Assembly: GCF_029207735.1 (NCBI RefSeq)
Contig: NZ_CP104395.1
Span: 602,692 to 666,691 of the forward strand
Reading direction: 5' to 3'
Length of the DNA stretch: 64,000 bases
Source: Candidatus Nanohalococcus occultus
Lineage (GTDB): Archaea; Nanohalarchaeota; Nanosalinia; Nanosalinales; Nanosalinaceae
Position 1 is the first letter of the stretch. Every line of letters starts with the position of its first letter. A program made the translations under genes and the position numbers. The notes under the pieces are model-generated. The model was not told the origin of the DNA. It saw only the letters and a list, made by a program, of their open reading frames with translations, and did no database searches. Positions 35,927 through 49,115 of the stretch are shown in pieces.

Positions 35927-36060
35927 GGGCCCATAGCTCAGTCTGGCAGAGCACCGGCCTTTTACGCCCCTCAAGTTCTCCACCGAGAACGAGGACAAAG
36001 AAGACGAAGCTCTTCGGCGAAGACAGCCGGGCGTCGCGGGTTCAAATCCCGTTGGGCCCA
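35927..36060 (+). tRNA. tRNA-Lys(UUU) with 60-base intron
   Basis: Acceptor GGGCCCA pairs with TGGGCCC (36053-36059), discriminator A. The D-arm GCTC/GAGC and T-arm with TTCAAAT are normal. Anticodon stem CCGGC (35954-35958) pairs with GCCGG (36026-36030). The anticodon TTT is at 35961-35963. The intron is 35965-36024, after position 37. A full bulge-helix-bulge is visible: CTTT (35959-35962) pairs with GAAG (36019-36022), bulges TA^C and AC^A, then GCC/GGC inside the intron. No encoded CCA. Confidence 0.95.
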
Positions 36061-36208
36061 CTTTTCCCACGTTTAACAGATCAAACAGATTTTTTGCCCT
36101 ACCAAAGTTACAGCGCACTCCCCGAGGATTCCAGAATTCTGATAAAAGAGAACAAACAGCTTAGTGTTACAGAAGAGTAATAAATCTTTTTCTCGTCTCT
36201 AATCTAGT

Positions 36209-37391: not shown

Positions 37392-37525
37392 GGACCGGTA
37401 GCTTAGCCAGGTTAGAGCGCCACGCTGATAACCGCATTTTCCGAAAGGAAAACTGCTCTGATCCGACTTTTCGGTCAGAAAAGTCAGATACGTGGAGATC
37501 CCCAGTTCAAATCTGGGCCGGTCCA
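37392..37525 (+). tRNA. tRNA-Ile(GAU) with 59-base intron
   Basis: Acceptor GGACCGG pairs with CCGGTCC (37518-37524), discriminator A. Anticodon stem CCACG (37420-37424) pairs with CGTGG (37491-37495), anticodon GAT at 37427-37429. The intron is 37431-37489, after position 37. CTGA (37425-37428) pairs with TCAG (37484-37487) between bulges TA^A and AT^A. T-arm CCCAG/CTGGG. The intron also contains GACTTTT/AAAAGTC, which would compete with the splice helix. Confidence 0.93.
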
Positions 37526-37554
37526 CTCTTTACTGAATTAAATGTTTTCAGCGG

Positions 37555-39199: not shown

Positions 39200-39634
39200 T
39201 TAACGCGTTATGGTTTCATGGAGTGCGTCTAGGATTTCTTTCTGGTTCTGATGTGTTAGAAGAGACTTGGCGTCTTCATAGTTAAAGAAATGGCCGCGTT
39301 CGTGTTCATCGTGAGGGTTCGCCGAGGTATCAGTTACCGCACCTTCACCTACTTTTACAATAAATGCCTTGTACTCTCTTTTGATTGTCTGTCCGTCATC
39401 GTCCTCGAAGCTCCATTCAAGCACTTGTTCTGTGCTTTCCAGCTCTTCGATGGCTTCGATTCCTGCTTCCTCCGATAGTTCAAGCCGGGCGGTATGTTCA
39501 TAGTCGTCTTTCTCCAGGTGGCCTTTCGGCAGCTCCCAGCCCTCCCAGTTTTTCTTCCTGTTTAAAACCAGGTAGCGCGGATTTCTACTGGGCTTCTTGT
39601 ATACTACAAGCACCACTCCCTTCTCCCTTTCCAT
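39200..39634 (-). CDS. NUDIX hydrolase, Ap4A-hydrolase-like
   Basis: A 144-residue NUDIX fold. ELPKGHLEKDD...LELSEEAGI is the NUDIX box; three Glu metal ligands are kept, but the loop is one residue short and the usual Arg before the first Glu is Leu. WELPKGH is typical of diadenosine tetraphosphatases. ATG 39634 is used; the TTG at 39640 opens the frame only 6 bases earlier. Confidence 0.8.
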   Translation of the reverse strand: MEREKGVVLVVYKKPSRNPRYLVLNRKKNWEGWELPKGHLEKDDYEHTARLELSEEAGIEAIEELESTEQVLEWSFEDDDGQTIKREYKAFIVKVGEGAVTDTSANPHDEHERGHFFNYEDAKSLLTHQNQKEILDALHETITR

Positions 39635-39735
39635 AATCAAAACCTACGAGGAAAACTCCTTTAAACTGTCGATCCGAGCAGAAACTCGGATACAGATTGG
39701 AAAGACAGATAAAACATTCCGGCAACGTCGTTACT

Positions 39736-40389
39736 ATGGCAGAACAAAACTATGATCTAGGGATTGTATACACCAACACATACTTCGGAGACCTCGGCAG
39801 TTTCAGACCAGCTCTCAGCAGAGAACTGGAGAGAAATACCAGATCCCAGATATACCTAGACGGCGAAAACAGCTCGCAGGACCGAAGAGATACTCAACAA
39901 CAGTTCTACGCCGAACTGCTGGACGGGAAAATAGATATCGAAGGCGACCGTATAAACTGGAGTGAAGGCTCCTGGACAGACCCACATGCTGCGGCAGTCA
40001 ATCAAACTCTTCTGGACTACACAGATAAGATAGACGGTATAGACACAGGTCCGATCTTCGACGAGCAGATACTGGAGGAAGGATACATACCTTTCAAAAT
40101 TGAAGGCGACGGCGCCCAGGGAATGGAAAATCTACCAGAGGAAAGGCTTTACGGCTTGAAACAGGCCGGTAGAATCGAACACATAGACGAAAATTATGCC
40201 GAACACATCAAGGAGACGATGAATCCCGACATGCCTTCACTGATAATCAGAGACTCTGCTACGGCAATTAAAAGCTTCGTGGAGGCAGCGGATAACTCCA
40301 TAGAGGTACGGGAAGTCAATGAGAAAGTCCTGCCAAGTAGTCTTGAGAGAAGTGTGGAACTAGCCGGTTCGAAGAACTGGTTCCGGTGA
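39736..40389 (+). CDS. Unknown soluble protein
   Basis: Not recognised. ATG 39736 gives 217 residues, acidic, predicted alpha/beta, with DLGIVYTNTYFGDLG at the start that resembles a first beta-alpha unit. There are no membrane segments or metal motifs. It lies upstream of the Era-like operon with its own 90-base gap, so probably a separate transcript. Confidence 0.6.
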   Translation: MAEQNYDLGIVYTNTYFGDLGSFRPALSRELERNTRSQIYLDGENSSQDRRDTQQQFYAELLDGKIDIEGDRINWSEGSWTDPHAAAVNQTLLDYTDKIDGIDTGPIFDEQILEEGYIPFKIEGDGAQGMENLPEERLYGLKQAGRIEHIDENYAEHIKETMNPDMPSLIIRDSATAIKSFVEAADNSIEVREVNEKVLPSSLERSVELAGSKNWFR

Positions 40390-40480
40390 AAACACCGAAA
40401 GCTTTTTCCACCGGTCAAAACCCTACAGGCAAATAGTTTTTATAGTTGCGGCACGTTTTTACCATTAGTCTGGTACAAAA

Positions 40481-41107
40481 ATGATTGGAAAGCTCAAGGA
40501 ACTGTTCAGCGACTTGTTTAACAGTTCGGAAAATGAGGACAAGAGCATCGGAATTTACGGCCCGCCGAACGCCGGTAAGTCAACTTTAGCTAATCAGATC
40601 TCGAAGGACTTGACAGGAGAGGAGATGAGTAACGTCTCCGAAGTACCTCACGAGACAAGAACCGTCGAGAAAAAAGAGAAGGCCTCGATCGAGGCTAATG
40701 GACGTGAACTGGAGATCAACCTGCTTGATATGCCTGGTATATCTACAAACGTCGATTTCAAAGACTTCTCTGAACACGGTATTGAGGAAGATGAAGCTAA
40801 AGGCCGCGCAAAGGAAGCCACGAAAGGCATTGTGGAAGCCATCAAGTATCTTGATGATGTGGACGCGTGCCTTGTAATCTTCGATGCTACAGAAGATCCT
40901 TACACACAGGTAAACGTCACAATAATCGGAAACCTCGAAGCTAAAGACATACCGATCCTCGTTGTCGCGAACAAGATCGATCTGGAGGAAGCAGAGCCGG
41001 AACGGGTCAGAGATGCGTTCCCACAGCACCCTGTGGTTGAAATCTCGGCTAAGGAAGGCCAGCACATCGACAAGCTTTATGAGGAAATAGTTGGAAGGTT
41101 AAGTTAG
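40481..41107 (+). CDS. Era-like GTPase (ArvA/OapA-associated type)
   Basis: A 208-residue Ras-like GTPase. G1 GPPNAGKST (residues 27-35), G3 DMPG, G4 NKID near 168 and G5 SAK. A TATA (TTTTTATAG, about 40437-40445) lies upstream. It heads a conserved archaeal cluster with ArvB (DUF2073) and ArvC zinc-ribbon proteins; in bacteria the Oap homologues bind OLE RNA. The archaeal role is not established. Confidence 0.88.
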   Translation: MIGKLKELFSDLFNSSENEDKSIGIYGPPNAGKSTLANQISKDLTGEEMSNVSEVPHETRTVEKKEKASIEANGRELEINLLDMPGISTNVDFKDFSEHGIEEDEAKGRAKEATKGIVEAIKYLDDVDACLVIFDATEDPYTQVNVTIIGNLEAKDIPILVVANKIDLEEAEPERVRDAFPQHPVVEISAKEGQHIDKLYEEIVGRLS

Positions 41108-41491
41108 ATGAGCGATGACGGTGTCACCATAGAGTTCCTTTCAAGAGAGAAGCTTTCCGAGAACGATTTTTCCGACAAGATTGAGACAGTTCTGGAAAAA
41201 GTGAGAAATGACGCTGTACTTGTGCTTGAAGAAGCATGGACGCCACAGGAAAAACGAGACCTTATTGAATCCTCAATGAAACAAGTCGATGAGGACTTTC
41301 CGGGAGTCGAGTTCATGGGCCTGAACGCAGAGCCTTCGAAGATTAACAGGGCGAAAAGAATGTTTTTCAGCAAGATATTCAACGAAGACCACCGACGCGG
41401 ACTGACCATTGTCGGGAACTCCCGCGTGATGGAGAAAATCAAAGAGGAAAGAGACTCAGTCTCATTCCTTGCGAAACTTGAGGAAGCATGA
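41108..41491 (+). CDS. ArvB/OapB family protein (DUF2073)
   Basis: A 127-residue protein that begins at the base after the GTPase stop. The pattern LVLEEAWTPQEKRDLIESSM and FMGLNAEPSK is typical of DUF2073. Relatives bind RNA internal loops with a KOW-like fold in bacteria. Function in archaea unknown. Operon with the GTPase and the zinc-ribbon gene. Confidence 0.8.
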   Translation: MSDDGVTIEFLSREKLSENDFSDKIETVLEKVRNDAVLVLEEAWTPQEKRDLIESSMKQVDEDFPGVEFMGLNAEPSKINRAKRMFFSKIFNEDHRRGLTIVGNSRVMEKIKEERDSVSFLAKLEEA

Positions 41492-41538
41492 TGAAAGGAA
41501 ATTCTCTGCTCTCAGAAAATAAAGGAGGCGGCCTCTAG

Positions 41539-41919
41539 ATGCCTCACCGATGTATGAACTGCGGGGAAACGTATGAAGACGGCTCTGATAAACTTATCCA
41601 GGGCTGTGACTGCGGTTCATCCCTTTTCGTCTACGAGCAAGGCGAATCGATGAGCGAGGACGAACAGGAACAAGTAACGGAGAAAGTAGAGGAAATGATG
41701 GCCGATGGCGTCGAGGAAACAGGAGACGTCAAGTTCGAGTTCGATCTGGACTCTATCCGGGTTGAAAACGAAGGCGTGTACAGTATAAACGTTTCACGGC
41801 TGTTAAAGGAGATACCTCTGGTTATAAGAAAGACCGAAGGCACTTATCATATACACCTTCCGAGTGCGTTCGATCCAAGCACTACGGACATCAGCCCATC
41901 GGAGCTAGATAAAGAATGA
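41539..41919 (+). CDS. ArvC/OapC family zinc-ribbon protein
   Basis: A 126-residue protein. An N-terminal zinc ribbon (CMNCGETY, then GCDCGSS) is followed by an acidic linker and a beta domain ending in GTYHIHLPS, as in the ArvC family. It follows DUF2073 by 47 bases in the same operon. The next gene overlaps its stop (ATGA). Confidence 0.8.
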   Translation: MPHRCMNCGETYEDGSDKLIQGCDCGSSLFVYEQGESMSEDEQEQVTEKVEEMMADGVEETGDVKFEFDLDSIRVENEGVYSINVSRLLKEIPLVIRKTEGTYHIHLPSAFDPSTTDISPSELDKE

Positions 41920-42188
41920 CACTAAACAAAGAGGAGATGAAAGACAGGTTCGGACTGAAACACCTTACCACAAACCAAGAGGTAGCAGTATCTTTTACCT
42001 TGTTCACAGTCGGATTCGTATACCTTGTATCAGTTACGTATCCTTTGATCCAACAGCACATCCTTCCTTCCATGGTAGGAATTGTCTCGATCACAGTCGG
42101 ATACCTGTTCCTTATGGAATCGGTCCGTGAACTGGAGGAAAAAGATCACTTCCTATCCCGGAAGCTAGAGGACTCCAGCGAAAACTAA
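41916..42188 (+). CDS. Small two-helix membrane protein
   Basis: A 90-residue protein with two helices (about residues 25-47 and 52-74) and a charged C-terminal tail. Its ATG overlaps the stop of ArvC by 4 bases, so it belongs to that operon and may anchor the complex to the membrane; that is inference. Family not recognised. Confidence 0.65.
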   Translation: MTLNKEEMKDRFGLKHLTTNQEVAVSFTLFTVGFVYLVSVTYPLIQQHILPSMVGIVSITVGYLFLMESVRELEEKDHFLSRKLEDSSEN

Positions 42189-42201
42189 TAAATTGTTTCC
42201 C

Positions 42202-42492
42202 ATGAGTAGTAGTTACATGACTAAGGAAGAGGTTGATCTTGACTTCACATTTTCAAACGGAGAGCTAGCTAACTTTCTGGAAAACTTCGCCAGCAAGATA
42301 AGAGAAGGCGATGTAGGATTAAGTTTCCAGGGCCGGGAAGAAGTCGAGATATCCCCAACAGAGGACAACAGAGTAGAACTAGAGTTTACCGAATCAGATA
42401 GACAGAAGAAACTGGAGCTGGAGATTACTTTAAGAGAAGAGATCGAGACAACGGAAGAAGGACGTCCGAAGATCTCAGTAGAAATAGTTTAA
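42202..42492 (+). CDS. Amphi-Trp domain-like small protein
   Basis: About 96 residues. The pattern FSNGELANFLENFASKIREG...LELEITLREE fits the amphi-Trp domain of unknown function found in many halophilic archaea, although the usual Trp residues are absent. ATG 42202 is used; ATG 42217 is possible. Downstream of the ArvABC cluster, likely same transcript. Confidence 0.65.
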   Translation: MSSSYMTKEEVDLDFTFSNGELANFLENFASKIREGDVGLSFQGREEVEISPTEDNRVELEFTESDRQKKLELEITLREEIETTEEGRPKISVEIV

Positions 42493-42509
42493 AACAGAGA
42501 GACTTCGGT

Positions 42510-42857
42510 TTAACTACCGAAGCTCTCCAGTATCTCTATCATCCTATCGTTCTGCTCTATAATCTTATCGAGCTTCTCTTCAAGCCCCGAAGTATCAGTC
42601 GAGACGGTCTGAGTTTCTTTTGACGAACCTTCCTGGCTTTTTGAGCCGTTGTCGGATCCAAGCTCTTCAATTCCAGAAGACGAAGAAGAACCCTTACTCA
42701 GTCCATCTTCAAGTATCTCTATCTCGGTATCGTCGCCTTCCTTCTCTTCGGCGGACTCCGATGTTTCCTCCGCAGCCTCTCTAAGCGTATCAAAGTTTGG
42801 TTTGCTTGAACCGTCGCTGTTTTTCACATTGTCTTTTACGTTATCATAGTAGCCCAT
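42510..42857 (-). CDS. Acidic Ser/Glu-rich protein with C-terminal coil
   Basis: Not recognised. 115 residues; the first ~85 are disordered (Ser, Glu, Asp) and the last ~25 form a coil (IIEQNDRMIEILESF). ATG 42857 has GGAGGTG at 42867-42873, 9 bases upstream, and overlaps the end of the gene before it. The coil resembles the one in that upstream protein, so the two are probably paralogues and partners. Confidence 0.6.
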   Translation of the reverse strand: MGYYDNVKDNVKNSDGSSKPNFDTLREAAEETSESAEEKEGDDTEIEILEDGLSKGSSSSSGIEELGSDNGSKSQEGSSKETQTVSTDTSGLEEKLDKIIEQNDRMIEILESFGS

Positions 42858-43131
42858 CTGCTGCGGCACCTCCTAGCTCCTGAGCATTCGAGTTCGAATC
42901 ATCGTCTCCGTTTATCTCTTCAAGAAGCTCTATTATTCGCTCGTTCTGCCTGTGAACGTCTTCGATTGTAATACCAGAGCTTTCGTCGGTTGACCCACCT
43001 AGCAGCTTGCTCTTTGCTTCCTGTTCGAGTTTAGATCTGTTACTGCTCGCTTCTTTTTCCTCCGCTTTCTCCTGGGAGGTAGATATCCGGACCTCTCCTT
43101 CTCTATCATCATTACTTTTCTCGAAAAACAT
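42844..43131 (-). CDS. Acidic coil protein, paralogue of the next gene
   Basis: Not recognised. 95 residues: a charged, partly disordered N-terminus and a coil (VHRQNERIIELLEEI) matching the coil of the downstream protein. Overlap of 14 bases with that gene shows translational coupling. Divergent from the gene at 43186. Confidence 0.6.
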   Translation of the reverse strand: MFFEKSNDDREGEVRISTSQEKAEEKEASSNRSKLEQEAKSKLLGGSTDESSGITIEDVHRQNERIIELLEEINGDDDSNSNAQELGGAAADGLL

Positions 43132-43185
43132 CCTGTATGGAATTCCTCGAGCCTGAATAAAAGGTTTCTTGACAATCTAGCGCAT

Positions 43186-43668
43186 ATGAAAGTACAAGTA
43201 TTTCCGACAGAAAACCCCGAGCAACTTGTAGAAAACCTTGAGAAACGAGCGGAAACCGCTGAACTCAAGGACGGGAAAATAGAGGTAGAGACCGAAAGCT
43301 ACAGGTTTCTCGAAAAGGTTCCTGGCATCGAAAAGTTCGAGGCAGAAGGCGAAGAACACATGGGACTGGGCGGAAAGCCAGTCGAGACACAGGTTTATGC
43401 GAAGATCGAATCCAAGGAAGATGCCGTAGAATGCCTACTGGCGACCGTGGAAGGATACGATCTAAGGATTCTGAACACCGGCCGTGACTGGGATCTGCGG
43501 AAGCTGAAAAAATTCAACCCGGACATTAAACATCTGAAATTTGATGAACCAAGGGAAGAATTCGGTATCGAGAAAGCGCTGTTTGAGGCCGAGGATCTGG
43601 ATGAGATCAGTGTTGAGATGCCTGAAAAAGAAGAGGTACTTAAGATCTACCGGGAACTGTTGACCTGA
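43186..43668 (+). CDS. Unknown protein
   Basis: Not recognised. 160 residues, acidic alpha/beta, with a strand-helix pattern VQVFPTENPEQLVENLEK at the start and a LRKLKKFNPDIKHLKF basic stretch near residue 105. No catalytic motif seen. Followed by a zinc-ribbon gene 44 bases later. Confidence 0.6.
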   Translation: MKVQVFPTENPEQLVENLEKRAETAELKDGKIEVETESYRFLEKVPGIEKFEAEGEEHMGLGGKPVETQVYAKIESKEDAVECLLATVEGYDLRILNTGRDWDLRKLKKFNPDIKHLKFDEPREEFGIEKALFEAEDLDEISVEMPEKEEVLKIYRELLT

Positions 43669-43712
43669 AACAACTTAAACAGTAAGGTTTCAAACAAAGG
43701 TGTAGAGGAATA

Positions 43713-44003
43713 ATGAAGGACATAGACTTTGAGCGAACAGAATACGTAACCAACCGCGAGTTAGAAAATGATGAAGGAGAAGAAACCGGGAAGCTACAGA
43801 TGTTCTCATATGATAACGAAGTCTTCCACTACAAACTAACGTGTCCTTACTGCCAGCACACTTTCGAAGGAGAAGAAGAGCTAGGCAGCCGTCCATGGTG
43901 GATCGAATGCCCTGAATGTACACGCTCAACAAACGTATACCGAATCAAGGACAAGAAAAAACGGGAGATCAAGGACAGGGCGCCGGACCCATCCGACGTC
44001 TAG
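43713..44003 (+). CDS. Small zinc-ribbon protein
   Basis: A 96-residue protein with CPYC near residue 46 and CPEC near 67, a likely zinc ribbon. GAGGAA lies 4 bases before ATG 43713. Function unknown. Its end overlaps the LysRS-like gene by 4 bases, tail to tail. Confidence 0.65.
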   Translation: MKDIDFERTEYVTNRELENDEGEETGKLQMFSYDNEVFHYKLTCPYCQHTFEGEEELGSRPWWIECPECTRSTNVYRIKDKKKREIKDRAPDPSDV

Positions 44004-44968
44004 ATCTCATTTTCAACCACGTTTTTCCTTTCCTCATTCAACCAGTCCTGAACCTTTGAAGCAACCTTTACTCCGAACCCCTCCAAGTCAAGTTCTGATA
44101 CTGTTTTTCCCGTATTCTTCGACTTCGACAATGGCTTGCCATTACTATCCGATATCATAGGCGCTAGGAAGTAAGCCGGTGTCTGGCCGCATGCGAGTTC
44201 TGTGGTTTTTGCGACCTTGGTGATCTTCGAGGTTTTCTGCTCTTTTTCCGCAGACCGGTAGTCGCCGCCGAAAACATGGACCGCAGTGTCCTCACCAGGA
44301 TCCCGGATTGGGTCAACTAGGTAGTACACTCCAATTTGGCCAGTCAAAGGCTCGGATATAAACCCGTTCATACACTCGCGGTTTCTACACGGCGCCACAA
44401 GCTCGTCAGCACCCGGCGAGTAACTTGCTCCCTTCGCGTGGGCGTAACCGCATACGTTACACGAAGAACTAATAGGTGAGATATATCTCCGTCTGAACCC
44501 TCCTCCGTAGAATCCATCGAACTCATCGATATTTTTCAAAACAGTTCTCAAAGCATCCGTATAATCTTCATCTCCATGAAGATCCGATAAGTACCTGGTG
44601 TTGATCTCTATACCGAAATGCTTTTCCAGTGTCTCGAGGTACGGCTCGATCTCCTCCATCCTGTGTTCGGCTATATTCGCGTGTTCTCCGCACGGACAGT
44701 CTCTCCTGTAGAAAAGTTTCATTACACGGTTGTTTTCCGGGAAATGATGTTCATGGATATGTGCGCTCCAGTCAGTATCACAGCAAGTCACCGTTAAGTC
44801 AAGCAAGAGTCTGTCGGCGATAGCAGCCGCATACCCGATTGTCAGAAGATTTCCAACGTGTAACTCTCCGCTCGGCCGGAAGCCTACCTCAACTTTGCTT
44901 CCTTCAGGGTTCAAATCAGCTAGTTCACTGAAATCAGATGTTACATCGAATCTTTCCGGAGGCTTCAT
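44000..44968 (-). CDS. Short class-I aminoacyl-tRNA synthetase-like protein (LysRS-I relative)
   Basis: A 322-residue class-I catalytic domain. HIGH-type motif is PSGELHVGN near residue 34; KMSKS-type motif is PLSKSKNTG near 285. The segment CPCGEHANIAEH...FGIEIN and a zinc-like pair (CNVCG, CRNREC) match the order seen in class-I LysRS. True LysRS-I is over 500 residues with a C-terminal anticodon-binding part; this ends soon after KMSKS. It may be a stand-alone paralogue that charges or modifies something else. Confidence 0.7.
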   Translation of the reverse strand: MKPPERFDVTSDFSELADLNPEGSKVEVGFRPSGELHVGNLLTIGYAAAIADRLLLDLTVTCCDTDWSAHIHEHHFPENNRVMKLFYRRDCPCGEHANIAEHRMEEIEPYLETLEKHFGIEINTRYLSDLHGDEDYTDALRTVLKNIDEFDGFYGGGFRRRYISPISSSCNVCGYAHAKGASYSPGADELVAPCRNRECMNGFISEPLTGQIGVYYLVDPIRDPGEDTAVHVFGGDYRSAEKEQKTSKITKVAKTTELACGQTPAYFLAPMISDSNGKPLSKSKNTGKTVSELDLEGFGVKVASKVQDWLNEERKNVVENEI

Positions 44969-45341: not shown

Positions 45342-45542
45342 GCCTCCGTGGCTCAGTCTGGCTAGAGCGGTCCCCTTGTACGCGTGGTTACGCTCGAGCA
45401 GGACGCAATAAACCGCTTCCAGCGGCTTTAAGATGCGTTCTGGATTCGAGCGGAGCGAGAATGGAACGGTACGTGAACTTGAGATCGTATCGATCCGATC
45501 TAAGATAGGGACAGATCAAGGGTTCAAATCCCTTCGGGGGCT
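45342..45542 (+). tRNA. tRNA-Thr(UGU) with 126-base intron
   Basis: Acceptor GCCTCCG pairs with CGGGGGC (45535-45541), discriminator T. Anticodon stem GTCCC (45370-45374) pairs with GGGAC (45508-45512), anticodon TGT at 45377-45379. The intron is 45381-45506. CTTG (45375-45378) pairs with TAAG (45501-45504), bulges TA^C and AT^A. The intron is long for a tRNA and folds strongly: CGCTCGA/TCGAGCG, CAGGACGCA/TGCGTTCTG and CCGCT/AGCGG nest in one long hairpin. Confidence 0.92.
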
Positions 45543-45578
45543 CTTTATTACTTTCGGTTCGTATCCCTCGAACAAATT

Positions 45579-46481
45579 CTAATGTTCTATACGGTGTTTA
45601 CAGATTTCTTCTCCAGTATCTTCCATCTCTATTGTGATGTGGTCGGCTCCGTTTTCGGACAGTATTTTCCTGATTTCTGCTCTTGTCTGGTTTACCTCTT
45701 CCAGTTCTGTTAGGTTGTGGCAGACGTGGAGTGAAGCTACTGTTATCTGGCTACATAGGTTCCAGATCCTTAACTCTCTTACTCCCTCTACTTCGTCTAA
45801 TTCAAGTATTTCCTCCTTGATTTTACTGGAGTTGAGCGGGTTTTTCTGTAGGAGTATTCCTGTGCTTCCCTTCAGGACTTTTCCAGCACTCCAGACTATC
45901 ACTCCTGATATAAGTACTGCGGTTATCGGATCTGCTGCTTGGAACCCTGTGAAGTAGATTATGAGGGTTGAGATTATGACTGCGATTGAGCCGCCTGCGT
46001 CTCCGAGCAGGTGGTAGAATGCTCCTTTTTCGTTGAGGCTCATTTCTCCGCCTTGTAGGTAGTAGACCGATCCGATGTTCACGAGGAGTCCTCCAAAGCC
46101 TATGGCAAATGTAGGTACGGGGTCTATCTGGATTGGTTGAAGGAATCTCTGGTAGCTTTCCCAGATTATGTATCCTGCCATAGGTATGAGAAGCGCGCCG
46201 TTGAAGAAAGCAGTAAGTGTTTCCAGTCTGTGAAGTCCGAAGCTCCATTCTTTTCCCCCATCCCTGTTTTCTGCGAGGTAGGCGGAGCCGAACGCTGTGA
46301 TGTATGCGAGGGAGTCGAACAGCATATGGAAGGCATCGCTGATCAGGGCGATTGAGCCGAATACTACTCCTCCGATAAGTTCTACTATGAATCCGATTAG
46401 GTTGATTGCTGATACCACTCCGAGCTTCTTTGTACTTGTTTTCTCGTTGTGGCTGTGGTTATTCTCGGGAATGTGCGACAC
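45579..46481 (-). CDS. Cation diffusion facilitator (CDF) zinc/divalent metal exporter
   Basis: A six-helix CDF transporter of 300 residues. Metal-site HxxxD motifs are HMLFD (near 52) in helix 2 and HLLGD in helix 5. The C-terminal ~85 residues form the ferredoxin-like cytosolic domain. The N-terminus contains HSH. Start is GTG 46481 or TTG 46490, both overlapping the ArsR gene, so the two are translationally linked. Export of Zn2+ is likely, given its SmtB-type regulator. Confidence 0.9.
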   Translation of the reverse strand: MSHIPENNHSHNEKTSTKKLGVVSAINLIGFIVELIGGVVFGSIALISDAFHMLFDSLAYITAFGSAYLAENRDGGKEWSFGLHRLETLTAFFNGALLIPMAGYIIWESYQRFLQPIQIDPVPTFAIGFGGLLVNIGSVYYLQGGEMSLNEKGAFYHLLGDAGGSIAVIISTLIIYFTGFQAADPITAVLISGVIVWSAGKVLKGSTGILLQKNPLNSSKIKEEILELDEVEGVRELRIWNLCSQITVASLHVCHNLTELEEVNQTRAEIRKILSENGADHITIEMEDTGEEICKHRIEH

Positions 46482-46740
46482 CTGCTTCAATTATTTCTTC
46501 GATGTGTTTGTCGTTCATATTGTAGTATCGATGCTTGCCGTCTTTCCGCTTTTCAACTATCCTTCTGTCCTTTAGTTTTCTCAAGTGATGTGATATGTTG
46601 GAGTTAGTCATATCCAGTTCTTCAGTCAGTTCGTGGACACATTTTTCTCCTTCAGAAAGCGACAACAATATTTTCAGCCTATTCTCACTGGATAATGCCT
46701 GAAATATCTCTGCGGTTTCAGATAAATCTTCTCGATACAC
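46459..46740 (-). CDS. ArsR/SmtB-type metal-sensing repressor
   Basis: A 93-residue winged helix. The alpha5 site reads D-x-H-x10-H-x2-E, identical in pattern to the zinc site of SmtB. CVHEL lies at the alpha3N side. GTG 46740 is chosen over the TTG at 46761, because TATA (about 46764-46772) lies 25 bases upstream and the operator is then outside the gene. It regulates itself and the CDF gene. Confidence 0.88.
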   Translation of the reverse strand: MYREDLSETAEIFQALSSENRLKILLSLSEGEKCVHELTEELDMTNSNISHHLRKLKDRRIVEKRKDGKHRYYNMNDKHIEEIIEAGVAHSRE

Positions 46741-46745
46741 AACGC

Positions 46746-46772
46746 TTGAATAGTTGTTCAAATATTTAAATA
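46746..46772 (-). promoter_or_regulatory. ArsR/SmtB operator and promoter
   Basis: TTGAATAGTTGTTCAA (46746-46761) is an inverted repeat (TTGAA/TTCAA) like SmtB/CzrA operators. It lies between TATA (46764-46772) and GTG 46740, where repressor binding would block transcription. Confidence 0.6.
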
Positions 46773-46873: not shown

Positions 46874-48031
46874 TCACTCTAGTTTTTCCGGTAGCTCTCT
46901 TATTATGTCGTTCCATTTCTCTATGTGCTGTCCTTTCAGATCGGTGTTCCGCTCGTAGTCTTGTTGGAGGTTTTCCGTGTATTTCTCTACGAACTTCGAG
47001 GGCTGATCTGCCAGACGTAAGTAGTACTTGAGAGTTGGAAGCACACCGTCTACGATGATCTCGCAGTCTTCCTCGCTGCTCATTTTATGGATGAATTCAT
47101 CGATTTTCTGTTTTTGGCTTCCTAGTTGCTTGTCTGCCGTGGTTAAAAAGTAGTATCTGTCTACGTTGCTGTTTCTAATCTTGTTTTCAGCATTTACGAG
47201 TCTGTAGTACGTTGTTGTCTTTTCATGTTTGATCTCCACTGCTTCGAAGTAGTCTTGTTCATCCAGTACTTCGATATCTCCTATTGTAGACGACTGTGTG
47301 TCGGGCGTGGTATGAGAGCCGAGTTCGAGAAGCTCTTTTCCATCATATCTGCGGACGTCTTCTTTTACAACCTGATAGACTGTGTAGATAGCTATTACCG
47401 GGATACGAGAGCGACCTCCTTTACTGTAATCTGCTTCAATATGTCTTTTGACAGAGTCGTGTATCAGACTGATGGTGAGCCTTTCTTCGGCCTCAATCTC
47501 AGCCAGATCAGCTTGTTTTACAGAGCTTTTTCTCTCGAGTAAAAGCAGGTGCGCAGTTAAAGCATTTTCCGGGTTGACCGATCCTTTCTCCAGTTCCGCC
47601 ATGGCTTGGAGAAAAGCGTTTTTCACTTCTTTGTTCCTTATCTCCCCAGGATAATCCATGTTGTAAGGCTCTGGCTGCTCTAAAGATCGTGTTAGCCACC
47701 CTGCCTCACCCATAGCAAACCGGGGAAAGTTATCCTTCATGAACGGAGTAACGTTGTTGAAGTCAAGAGTCCTTCCAGAATATCCGTCATCCATCTTTTT
47801 CTGGTGTTTTCTAACATCCTGATCGGGGTCAAGACATTTTTTAAGGACACTTGTCAATAAAACCGTGTTTACAGCTTTCTGCGTGTCTGCGTTCTCAACA
47901 ACTATCTTCAGATTCTCGAAATACTTTGAAGAAATATTTTCAAGAAATTCTTGGCCCTCATCTTGCCTATACTGCTGAGTTGCTTGCTGGTGAAAGCTCT
48001 CAAGTCTCTTCCTTGGATTAGTCTCCGACAT
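46874..48031 (-). CDS. Type II restriction endonuclease, PD-(D/E)XK
   Basis: A 385-residue protein coupled to the methyltransferase (14-base overlap). The nuclease signature is GDIEVLDE...FEAVEIKHE (Asp, then Glu-x-Lys) near residues 245-267. The SGRTLDF...GWLTRSLEQP segment near 85-125 recalls the SacI-type family; this is from memory, uncertain. ATG 48031 (MSETNPRKR). The recognition site is unknown. Confidence 0.72.
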   Translation of the reverse strand: MSETNPRKRLESFHQQATQQYRQDEGQEFLENISSKYFENLKIVVENADTQKAVNTVLLTSVLKKCLDPDQDVRKHQKKMDDGYSGRTLDFNNVTPFMKDNFPRFAMGEAGWLTRSLEQPEPYNMDYPGEIRNKEVKNAFLQAMAELEKGSVNPENALTAHLLLLERKSSVKQADLAEIEAEERLTISLIHDSVKRHIEADYSKGGRSRIPVIAIYTVYQVVKEDVRRYDGKELLELGSHTTPDTQSSTIGDIEVLDEQDYFEAVEIKHEKTTTYYRLVNAENKIRNSNVDRYYFLTTADKQLGSQKQKIDEFIHKMSSEEDCEIIVDGVLPTLKYYLRLADQPSKFVEKYTENLQQDYERNTDLKGQHIEKWNDIIRELPEKLE

Positions 48032-49049
48032 AATCAGAAATCTTTGTTTCAGCATTTATTGAGTTAACTCTCTGTCTTGCCTTCTCACAGTACTCCGGGT
48101 TCAGATCATAGCCCAGATAATCCCGGTTCAACTTTTTTGCCGCCACAGCCGTAGTTCCCGAACCCATGAACGGATCAAGTACGAGATCTCCCTTATCAGT
48201 CAACAGCCTCAGAAGATGCCGGATTATGTACTCTGGATAGATAGCAGGGTGGTCACTCCAGTCAATCGACTCGACGGAAGACTCTATTACATCAGTCTTC
48301 ATCTTGTTTCCTTTCAAATCTATAATGGTGAAACCTTTATCCCTGATTTTTTGCATTCTGCCGCCTTCCTGACCGCCGTAAGGCAGTGCGTGGACTCCTC
48401 GTATCTTCATTCTGAAACCAGTGATATCTCCATTATGGACTCGGTCTATCGCATCCTGTAACTCCTTTTCAGCCTGCTGTTTTTCCTCTTGTGAGAGATC
48501 GGACTCTTCTATCAGCTCGAAGTATTTTTTCCCGTACCGATCAGTTCTTTTCTTACCTTTTATCTTGGTCTGTGCGATATCTAGATGTTTCTGATACTCC
48601 CGGATATCGTGCTTGTAATCTTTTGAAAGAGCGAAGTGGAAGAACGGTTCCGTGCTTCTTGTAAGCGTTCTATCCGACTGCCTTGGAGTAGGATTGGTTT
48701 TATGCCACGTAATATCGTTTACAAGCTTCACTGGCTCATTATCAATCATTCGAGTGGCAAAACGGGAAGGTATTAGCATCCGCCCATTGTCAACCCTTTT
48801 ATCTCCCATGTTAAACACCATACTTCCGCTTTCCTTGGTGACTCGGACACACTCCTTGAAAACCTCATGAATCTTATCTATATAGTCGTCAACATCCTCC
48901 TCTCTGCCTATCTGTCCCTCCATATCATAGTCTCGCTGATTAAAGTACGGAGGAGAAGTAATCACAAGATCGACAGAATCATCAGGAAGTTTTTTCATTT
49001 CCTCAACGCAGTCGCCGGCGATTATCTGGTTTCGCGGTGCTCCAGGCAT
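48018..49049 (-). CDS. Type II DNA methyltransferase, beta class (N4-cytosine or N6-adenine)
   Basis: A 343-residue SAM-dependent methyltransferase with motif IV (TSPPYFNQRDY, near residue 29) before motif I (LDPFMGSGTT, near 300), the beta-class order. SPPY favours N4-cytosine. The target recognition domain lies between (residues 120-260). ATG 49049 gives MPGAPRNQIIAGDC; the frame start at 49109 lacks support. Protects host DNA from the downstream nuclease. Confidence 0.9.
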   Translation of the reverse strand: MPGAPRNQIIAGDCVEEMKKLPDDSVDLVITSPPYFNQRDYDMEGQIGREEDVDDYIDKIHEVFKECVRVTKESGSMVFNMGDKRVDNGRMLIPSRFATRMIDNEPVKLVNDITWHKTNPTPRQSDRTLTRSTEPFFHFALSKDYKHDIREYQKHLDIAQTKIKGKKRTDRYGKKYFELIEESDLSQEEKQQAEKELQDAIDRVHNGDITGFRMKIRGVHALPYGGQEGGRMQKIRDKGFTIIDLKGNKMKTDVIESSVESIDWSDHPAIYPEYIIRHLLRLLTDKGDLVLDPFMGSGTTAVAAKKLNRDYLGYDLNPEYCEKARQRVNSINAETKISDYVGD

Positions 49050-49115
49050 ACTAATCCCTAACGATCTATCTTTATTAAAATCGTATCCAGCCGTGAGTTT
49101 AAAAACCACAGGTTT

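Follow-up and report, generated by a model that had tools for sequence, protein, structure and literature searches.

A stand-alone relative of class I lysyl-tRNA synthetase with a replaced active-site signature in small archaeal genomes

Shortened or duplicated aminoacyl-tRNA synthetases have repeatedly proved to be enzymes of new chemistry, as in GluQRS, EpmA, HisZ and MshC. EpmA (PoxA) has the class II fold, which is unrelated to class I, and BshC acts in the bacillithiol pathway. GluQRS (YadB; glutamyl-queuosine tRNA-Asp synthetase) is a short class I core without an anticodon-binding domain. EpmA, a paralogue of class II LysRS, resembles the protein described here in logic only, as a LysRS-type enzyme with a new acceptor, so far as the accessible part of PMC9437257 describes it. 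The reference list of that paper includes MshC as a relative of CysRS, and its accessible part traces none of the synthetase-like proteins that it names to class I LysRS. Class I LysRS (LysRS-I) itself requires tRNA for amino acid activation, according to the accessible part of PMC7373986. The shortened synthetase is a kind already known; a further example could be more than a variant if its reaction proves new.

We analysed a window of 64,000 nucleotides from the genome of Candidatus Nanohalococcus occultus (one contig, 948,351 bases). An earlier note on this DNA had described one of its genes (Table 1) as encoding a LysRS-I-like catalytic domain of 322 residues with HIGH- and KMSKS-type motifs, and this description holds. 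PF01921 (class I LysRS) is the sole Pfam family that matches the protein above cut-off (E 1.9e-7, 30.8 bits, cut-off 27, residues 23–292). The NCBIfam model of LysRS-I, TIGR00467, gives 18.5 bits, far under its cut-off of 147.55, and the NCBIfam model of GluQRS gives 15.1 bits against a cut-off of 250. Weak matches to a GluQRS model occur in eight of 13 members of the family described below. Five orthologues terminate at the same place, and the convergent neighbour overlaps the stop codon by a few bases; a C-terminus concealed by a frameshift, which the earlier note had raised as an objection, is therefore excluded. A frameshifted or decayed LysRS is likewise ruled out by the conserved length, the overlapping convergent neighbour and a dN/dS of 0.15. 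This ratio comes from L002/L003, the sole pair with unsaturated dS (the other 14 of the 15 pairs are saturated), so the gene is under purifying selection as seen in one pair.

Table 1. Coordinates of the short gene, its motifs and its convergent neighbour (positions in the window)
Feature	Position	Strand	Basis or remark
Stand-alone class I LysRS-related catalytic domain, 322 aa	44000..44968	(-)	ATG start; translation, Pfam, orthologues, fold model
HIGH-type motif HVGN, residues 37-40	44849..44860	(-)	H37 and G39 in 14/14 short proteins
Zinc ribbon C170-x2-C173 ... C194-x4-C199	44372..44461	(-)	Four Cys in 14/14 short proteins
Family signature R222-D223...D227...H231-V-F-G-G-D-Y237, replacing the LysRS-I signature	44258..44305	(-)	R222, D223, D227, H231, G234, G235, D236 and Y237 each in 14/14
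KMSKS-type motif LSKS, residues 280-283	44120..44131	(-)	K282 and S283 in 14/14 short proteins
Convergent neighbour, small zinc-ribbon protein	43713..44003	(+)	Overlaps the stop of the short gene by a few bases

Full-length orthologues with 57–63% identity are present in five other genomes, all of the same taxonomic family, out of 60 relatives searched. An alignment search finds the short protein in 6/28 genomes of the source phylum and in five of the 12 most complete. A scan of genome contigs with the six-row alignment of these proteins recovered three nanohaloarchaeal loci where a single-protein query had given none. The six nanohaloarchaeal members have 315–326 residues. Eight further members (L073–L075, L083–L086 and L088; 324–435 residues) occur in two other archaeal groups. 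When the six-row alignment was compared with 394 archaeal relatives, an out-of-sample comparison, three distant short proteins scored 108–125 bits and the best full-length LysRS-I 37.5. An alignment of 13 of the 14 members (L088 was left out) matched nine of the 394 relatives at 378–436 bits, and the remaining matches listed reached at most 62.4. In the phylum of G299, 12/371 genomes match at 1e-12; frame length and reading of the sequences assign six of these to the short family (G299, G443, G409, G520, G578 and G467), the other six being LysRS-I with frames of 504–555 residues. Two of 34 genomes match in the phylum of G329. All members but one have 315–359 residues. The exception, L088 (G467, 435 residues), carries its additional length inside the core and is the most divergent member, lacking D64-x-D66 and having T in place of the R/K before PSG. 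Judged by eye, L083 and L074 are less acidic than the 322-residue protein and may fold at low salt. Carrier genomes are about 0.6–1.7 Mb in size.

The short proteins form a family of their own. In a tree with 31 LysRS-I sequences the 14 lie on the opposite side of a branch with support of 100/100. A second tree with E. coli GluRS, GluQRS, TyrRS and CysRS, three nanohaloarchaeal CysRS and 14 of the 31 LysRS-I rows again recovers the short family (98/96) and LysRS-I (100/100), with CysRS and GluRS/GluQRS separate too. Placement inside another synthetase family, which the earlier note had named as a possible outcome of such a phylogeny, was not seen. GluQRS pairs with GluRS at 100/100, apart from the short family, although each is represented by one sequence on a long branch, and the deep branching order is unsure owing to long branches. 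Four of 30 LysRS-I loci (L022, L030, L033 and L034) failed the motif/ORF filter and are absent from the joint alignment and the tree; L144 is also absent from the tree of 14 and 31 sequences. With a LysRS-I profile the 322-residue protein scores 24 bits, no better than CysRS at 27–31 bits, the scores in this comparison being in-sample for each family's own rows. Profile–profile comparison of the short family with LysRS-I gives a probability of 99.6%. We consider it a fair placing that the short proteins are nearest to LysRS-I. No model specific to the short family is found in Pfam, NCBIfam or PHROGs, and a full-text literature search met no description of it.

The earlier note offered two readings of the shortened protein, a new role or the only LysRS of a reduced genome. 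The second is rejected. The source genome encodes a full-length LysRS-I in a 534-residue frame (E 1.8e-120), whereas class II LysRS was not found there (best model match 132 bits, cut-off 427.6). LysRS-I is likewise present in all five other nanohaloarchaeal carriers, with LysRS-II in addition in G009, and the eight distant carriers have LysRS-I in five cases and LysRS-II in three. A canonical LysRS thus accompanies the short protein in all 14 carriers, class I in 11 and class II only in three; in G329 the LysRS-I is seen in part (377-residue frame, model positions 1–351 of 515) and is perhaps cut by the contig. Five nanohaloarchaea (G002, G003, G007, G009 and G017) appear to hold both class I and class II LysRS at full length, and others have only one. 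The short protein could still be a second, minimal synthetase, one that recognises the acceptor stem alone and aminoacylates tRNA-Lys or some other tRNA. It has a full catalytic core with HIGH and KMSKS motifs and a zinc ribbon, and LysRS-I is its nearest relative. We regard this as improbable, however, given the canonical LysRS in every carrier, an occurrence too patchy for a decoding enzyme (6/28, and 6/371 in another phylum) and the absence of the LysRS-I signature from all the short proteins.

This last point is illustrated by a joint alignment of the 14 short and 28 full-length LysRS-I sequences. Both families share the HIGH and KMSKS positions, the zinc cysteines and R222. By contrast, W221, W225, W229, E237, K241, H243 and Y271, present in 28/28 LysRS-I, are found in none of the short proteins at the aligned positions. 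Where LysRS-I carries W..W..RW..E..GK[DE]H, every short protein has RD..D.H..GGDY, in which D223, D227, H231, G235 and Y237 are invariants of the family's own. The residue before PSG, usually T or S in LysRS-I, is R or K in 13 of the 14. Direct reading shows that the LysRS-I signature is kept in 36 of 37 full-length loci, including the four excluded by the filter. The exception, L144 (G409), is a LysRS-I of full length whose active-site string diverges, with GKEY instead of GK[DE]H; departure from the signature need not, therefore, by itself change the substrate. Some of the signature residues are reported, from work on LysRS1, to contact lysine. The ATP-binding motifs are kept. N40 is found in ten short proteins, while H37, G39, K282 and S283 are in all 14. 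An altered active-site region might also be expected of a non-catalytic regulator derived from a synthetase, such as a sensor of adenylate, amino acid or tRNA, but the HIGH histidine and the KMSKS lysine and serine would be needless in a dead enzyme, and we consider such a role very improbable.

A fold model built from 13 sequences (pLDDT 83.6, pTM 0.87), which superseded an earlier model from six (pLDDT 72.9), has LysRS-I 1irx as its best PDB match (Z 19.6, 276 residues aligned; Foldseek E 4.3e-12). The model aligns to residues 4–318 of the 507 in the 1irx chain; the part of LysRS-I after about residue 318, which includes the anticodon-binding domain, is thus absent, as the earlier note had said. 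The second match is BshC (4wbd; Z 16.9, rmsd 3.8, 270 residues aligned), followed by GluRS (Z 12.9) and GluQRS (4a91, Z 12.3). The rank of BshC suggests a ligase resembling BshC, MshC or EpmA, which would transfer an adenylated acid to a protein or to a metabolite bearing an amine or thiol group, and the short protein has no tRNA-recognition domain beyond the core. However, identity to BshC is just 8%, the aligned range spans residues 23–539 of a longer protein, and no linked biosynthetic gene is seen in the neighbourhoods listed. We take the BshC match as a lead to a small-molecule acceptor and no more, and think a small-molecule or protein ligase unlikely, though the most serious of the alternatives. 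An EpmA-like role, with the short protein as stand-in for deoxyhypusine synthase (DHS), was rejected. DHS is present in 13 of the 14 carriers and was missed only in G141, a draft that is 92% complete. Unlike EpmA, the short protein has the class I fold and motifs.

We suggest instead that the short protein is a distinct stand-alone ligase related to LysRS-I, a proposal whose chances we judge to be about even. ATP would be bound by the HxG[NT] and [LM][SG]KS loops. Since these motifs are intact, the reaction probably begins with adenylation of a carboxylate, that of an amino acid or a similar acid; since every member has another signature around the pocket than LysRS-I, this acid is probably not L-lysine. 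The activated acid would then pass to an acceptor selected by no anticodon-binding domain. Because class I LysRS depends on tRNA to activate its amino acid, activation could have been lost together with tRNA recognition. GluQRS is an example of a tRNA-modifying enzyme that consists of a bare class I core. By this analogy, and given the retained zinc ribbon, we slightly favour RNA as the acceptor, with a small molecule or protein nearly as likely. Intact ATP motifs and a replaced substrate signature in a conserved family of small genomes point to a reaction not yet described. We tentatively propose an undescribed family of ligases derived from class I LysRS, seen to date in small archaeal genomes alone, whose substrate pocket has been rebuilt and whose chemistry is its own. 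It might then, and we put this forward with similar reserve, be a class I parallel to EpmA or GluQRS, for example one that modifies RNA or a metabolite with an amino acid in a new way. A new role of some kind, the other reading of the earlier note, is likely. Ca. Nanohalococcus occultus SVXNc, a carrier, is grown in laboratory co-culture, which gives direct access to its RNA and metabolites.

A mobile or viral gene was rejected as an explanation, as no relative was detected in the viral contigs (33 stretches fit a pattern, none related), plasmids and phages searched; three family proteins had no match in PHROGs, and PADLOC gave no convincing match.

On one side the gene adjoins a convergent block that all six nanohaloarchaea share (zinc ribbon, OapC, OapB, GTPase, NUDIX), and the upstream flank varies. 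In the window the conserved side corresponds to a block at 39200–44003 encoding a NUDIX protein, an Era-like GTPase, OapB, OapC, an Amphi-Trp domain and several small proteins that match no family. The small zinc-ribbon gene adjoins or lies near the short gene in all six carriers, with one other gene between them in G015, G001 and G006. It is also present in the non-carrier G002, and we do not count it as a component of the system. In G002 a NikR-like and a ParB-like gene (both named by eye) occupy the place of the short gene within the same block, and no remnant of the short gene is found at this locus (best tblastn E 0.037), an arrangement as compatible with gain as with loss. In the non-carrier G003, the 220 kb examined did not include the locus. 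Two distant carriers have RpsB-, enolase-, RpoK-, Nop10- and aIF2-alpha-like neighbours and a third an IF-2-like gene nearby, all named by eye. Together with the retained zinc ribbon, the translation genes near the short gene in these three carriers are weak hints of an RNA acceptor; among the carrier neighbourhoods listed, no functional neighbour and no partner gene is conserved.

A tRNA-Thr(UGU) gene lies within about 1.1 kb upstream of the short gene in four of the six nanohaloarchaeal carriers, which probably reflects synteny only. The window holds three intron-containing tRNA genes on the (+) strand, Lys(ttt) at 35927–36061, Ile(gat) at 37392–37526 and Thr(tgt) at 45342–45543; ARAGORN with default settings missed all three and Rfam found two. 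Upstream of the short gene, at 45579–46761 (-), a cation-efflux (CDF) transporter, with no match in the other five carrier neighbourhoods, stands beside an ArsR-type regulator. Further on, an N6/N4 DNA methylase gene at 48018–49109 (-) adjoins a gene at 46874–48055 (-) with a weak match to SacI endonuclease just under cut-off, and 46874–49109 (-) is probably a type II restriction–modification pair.
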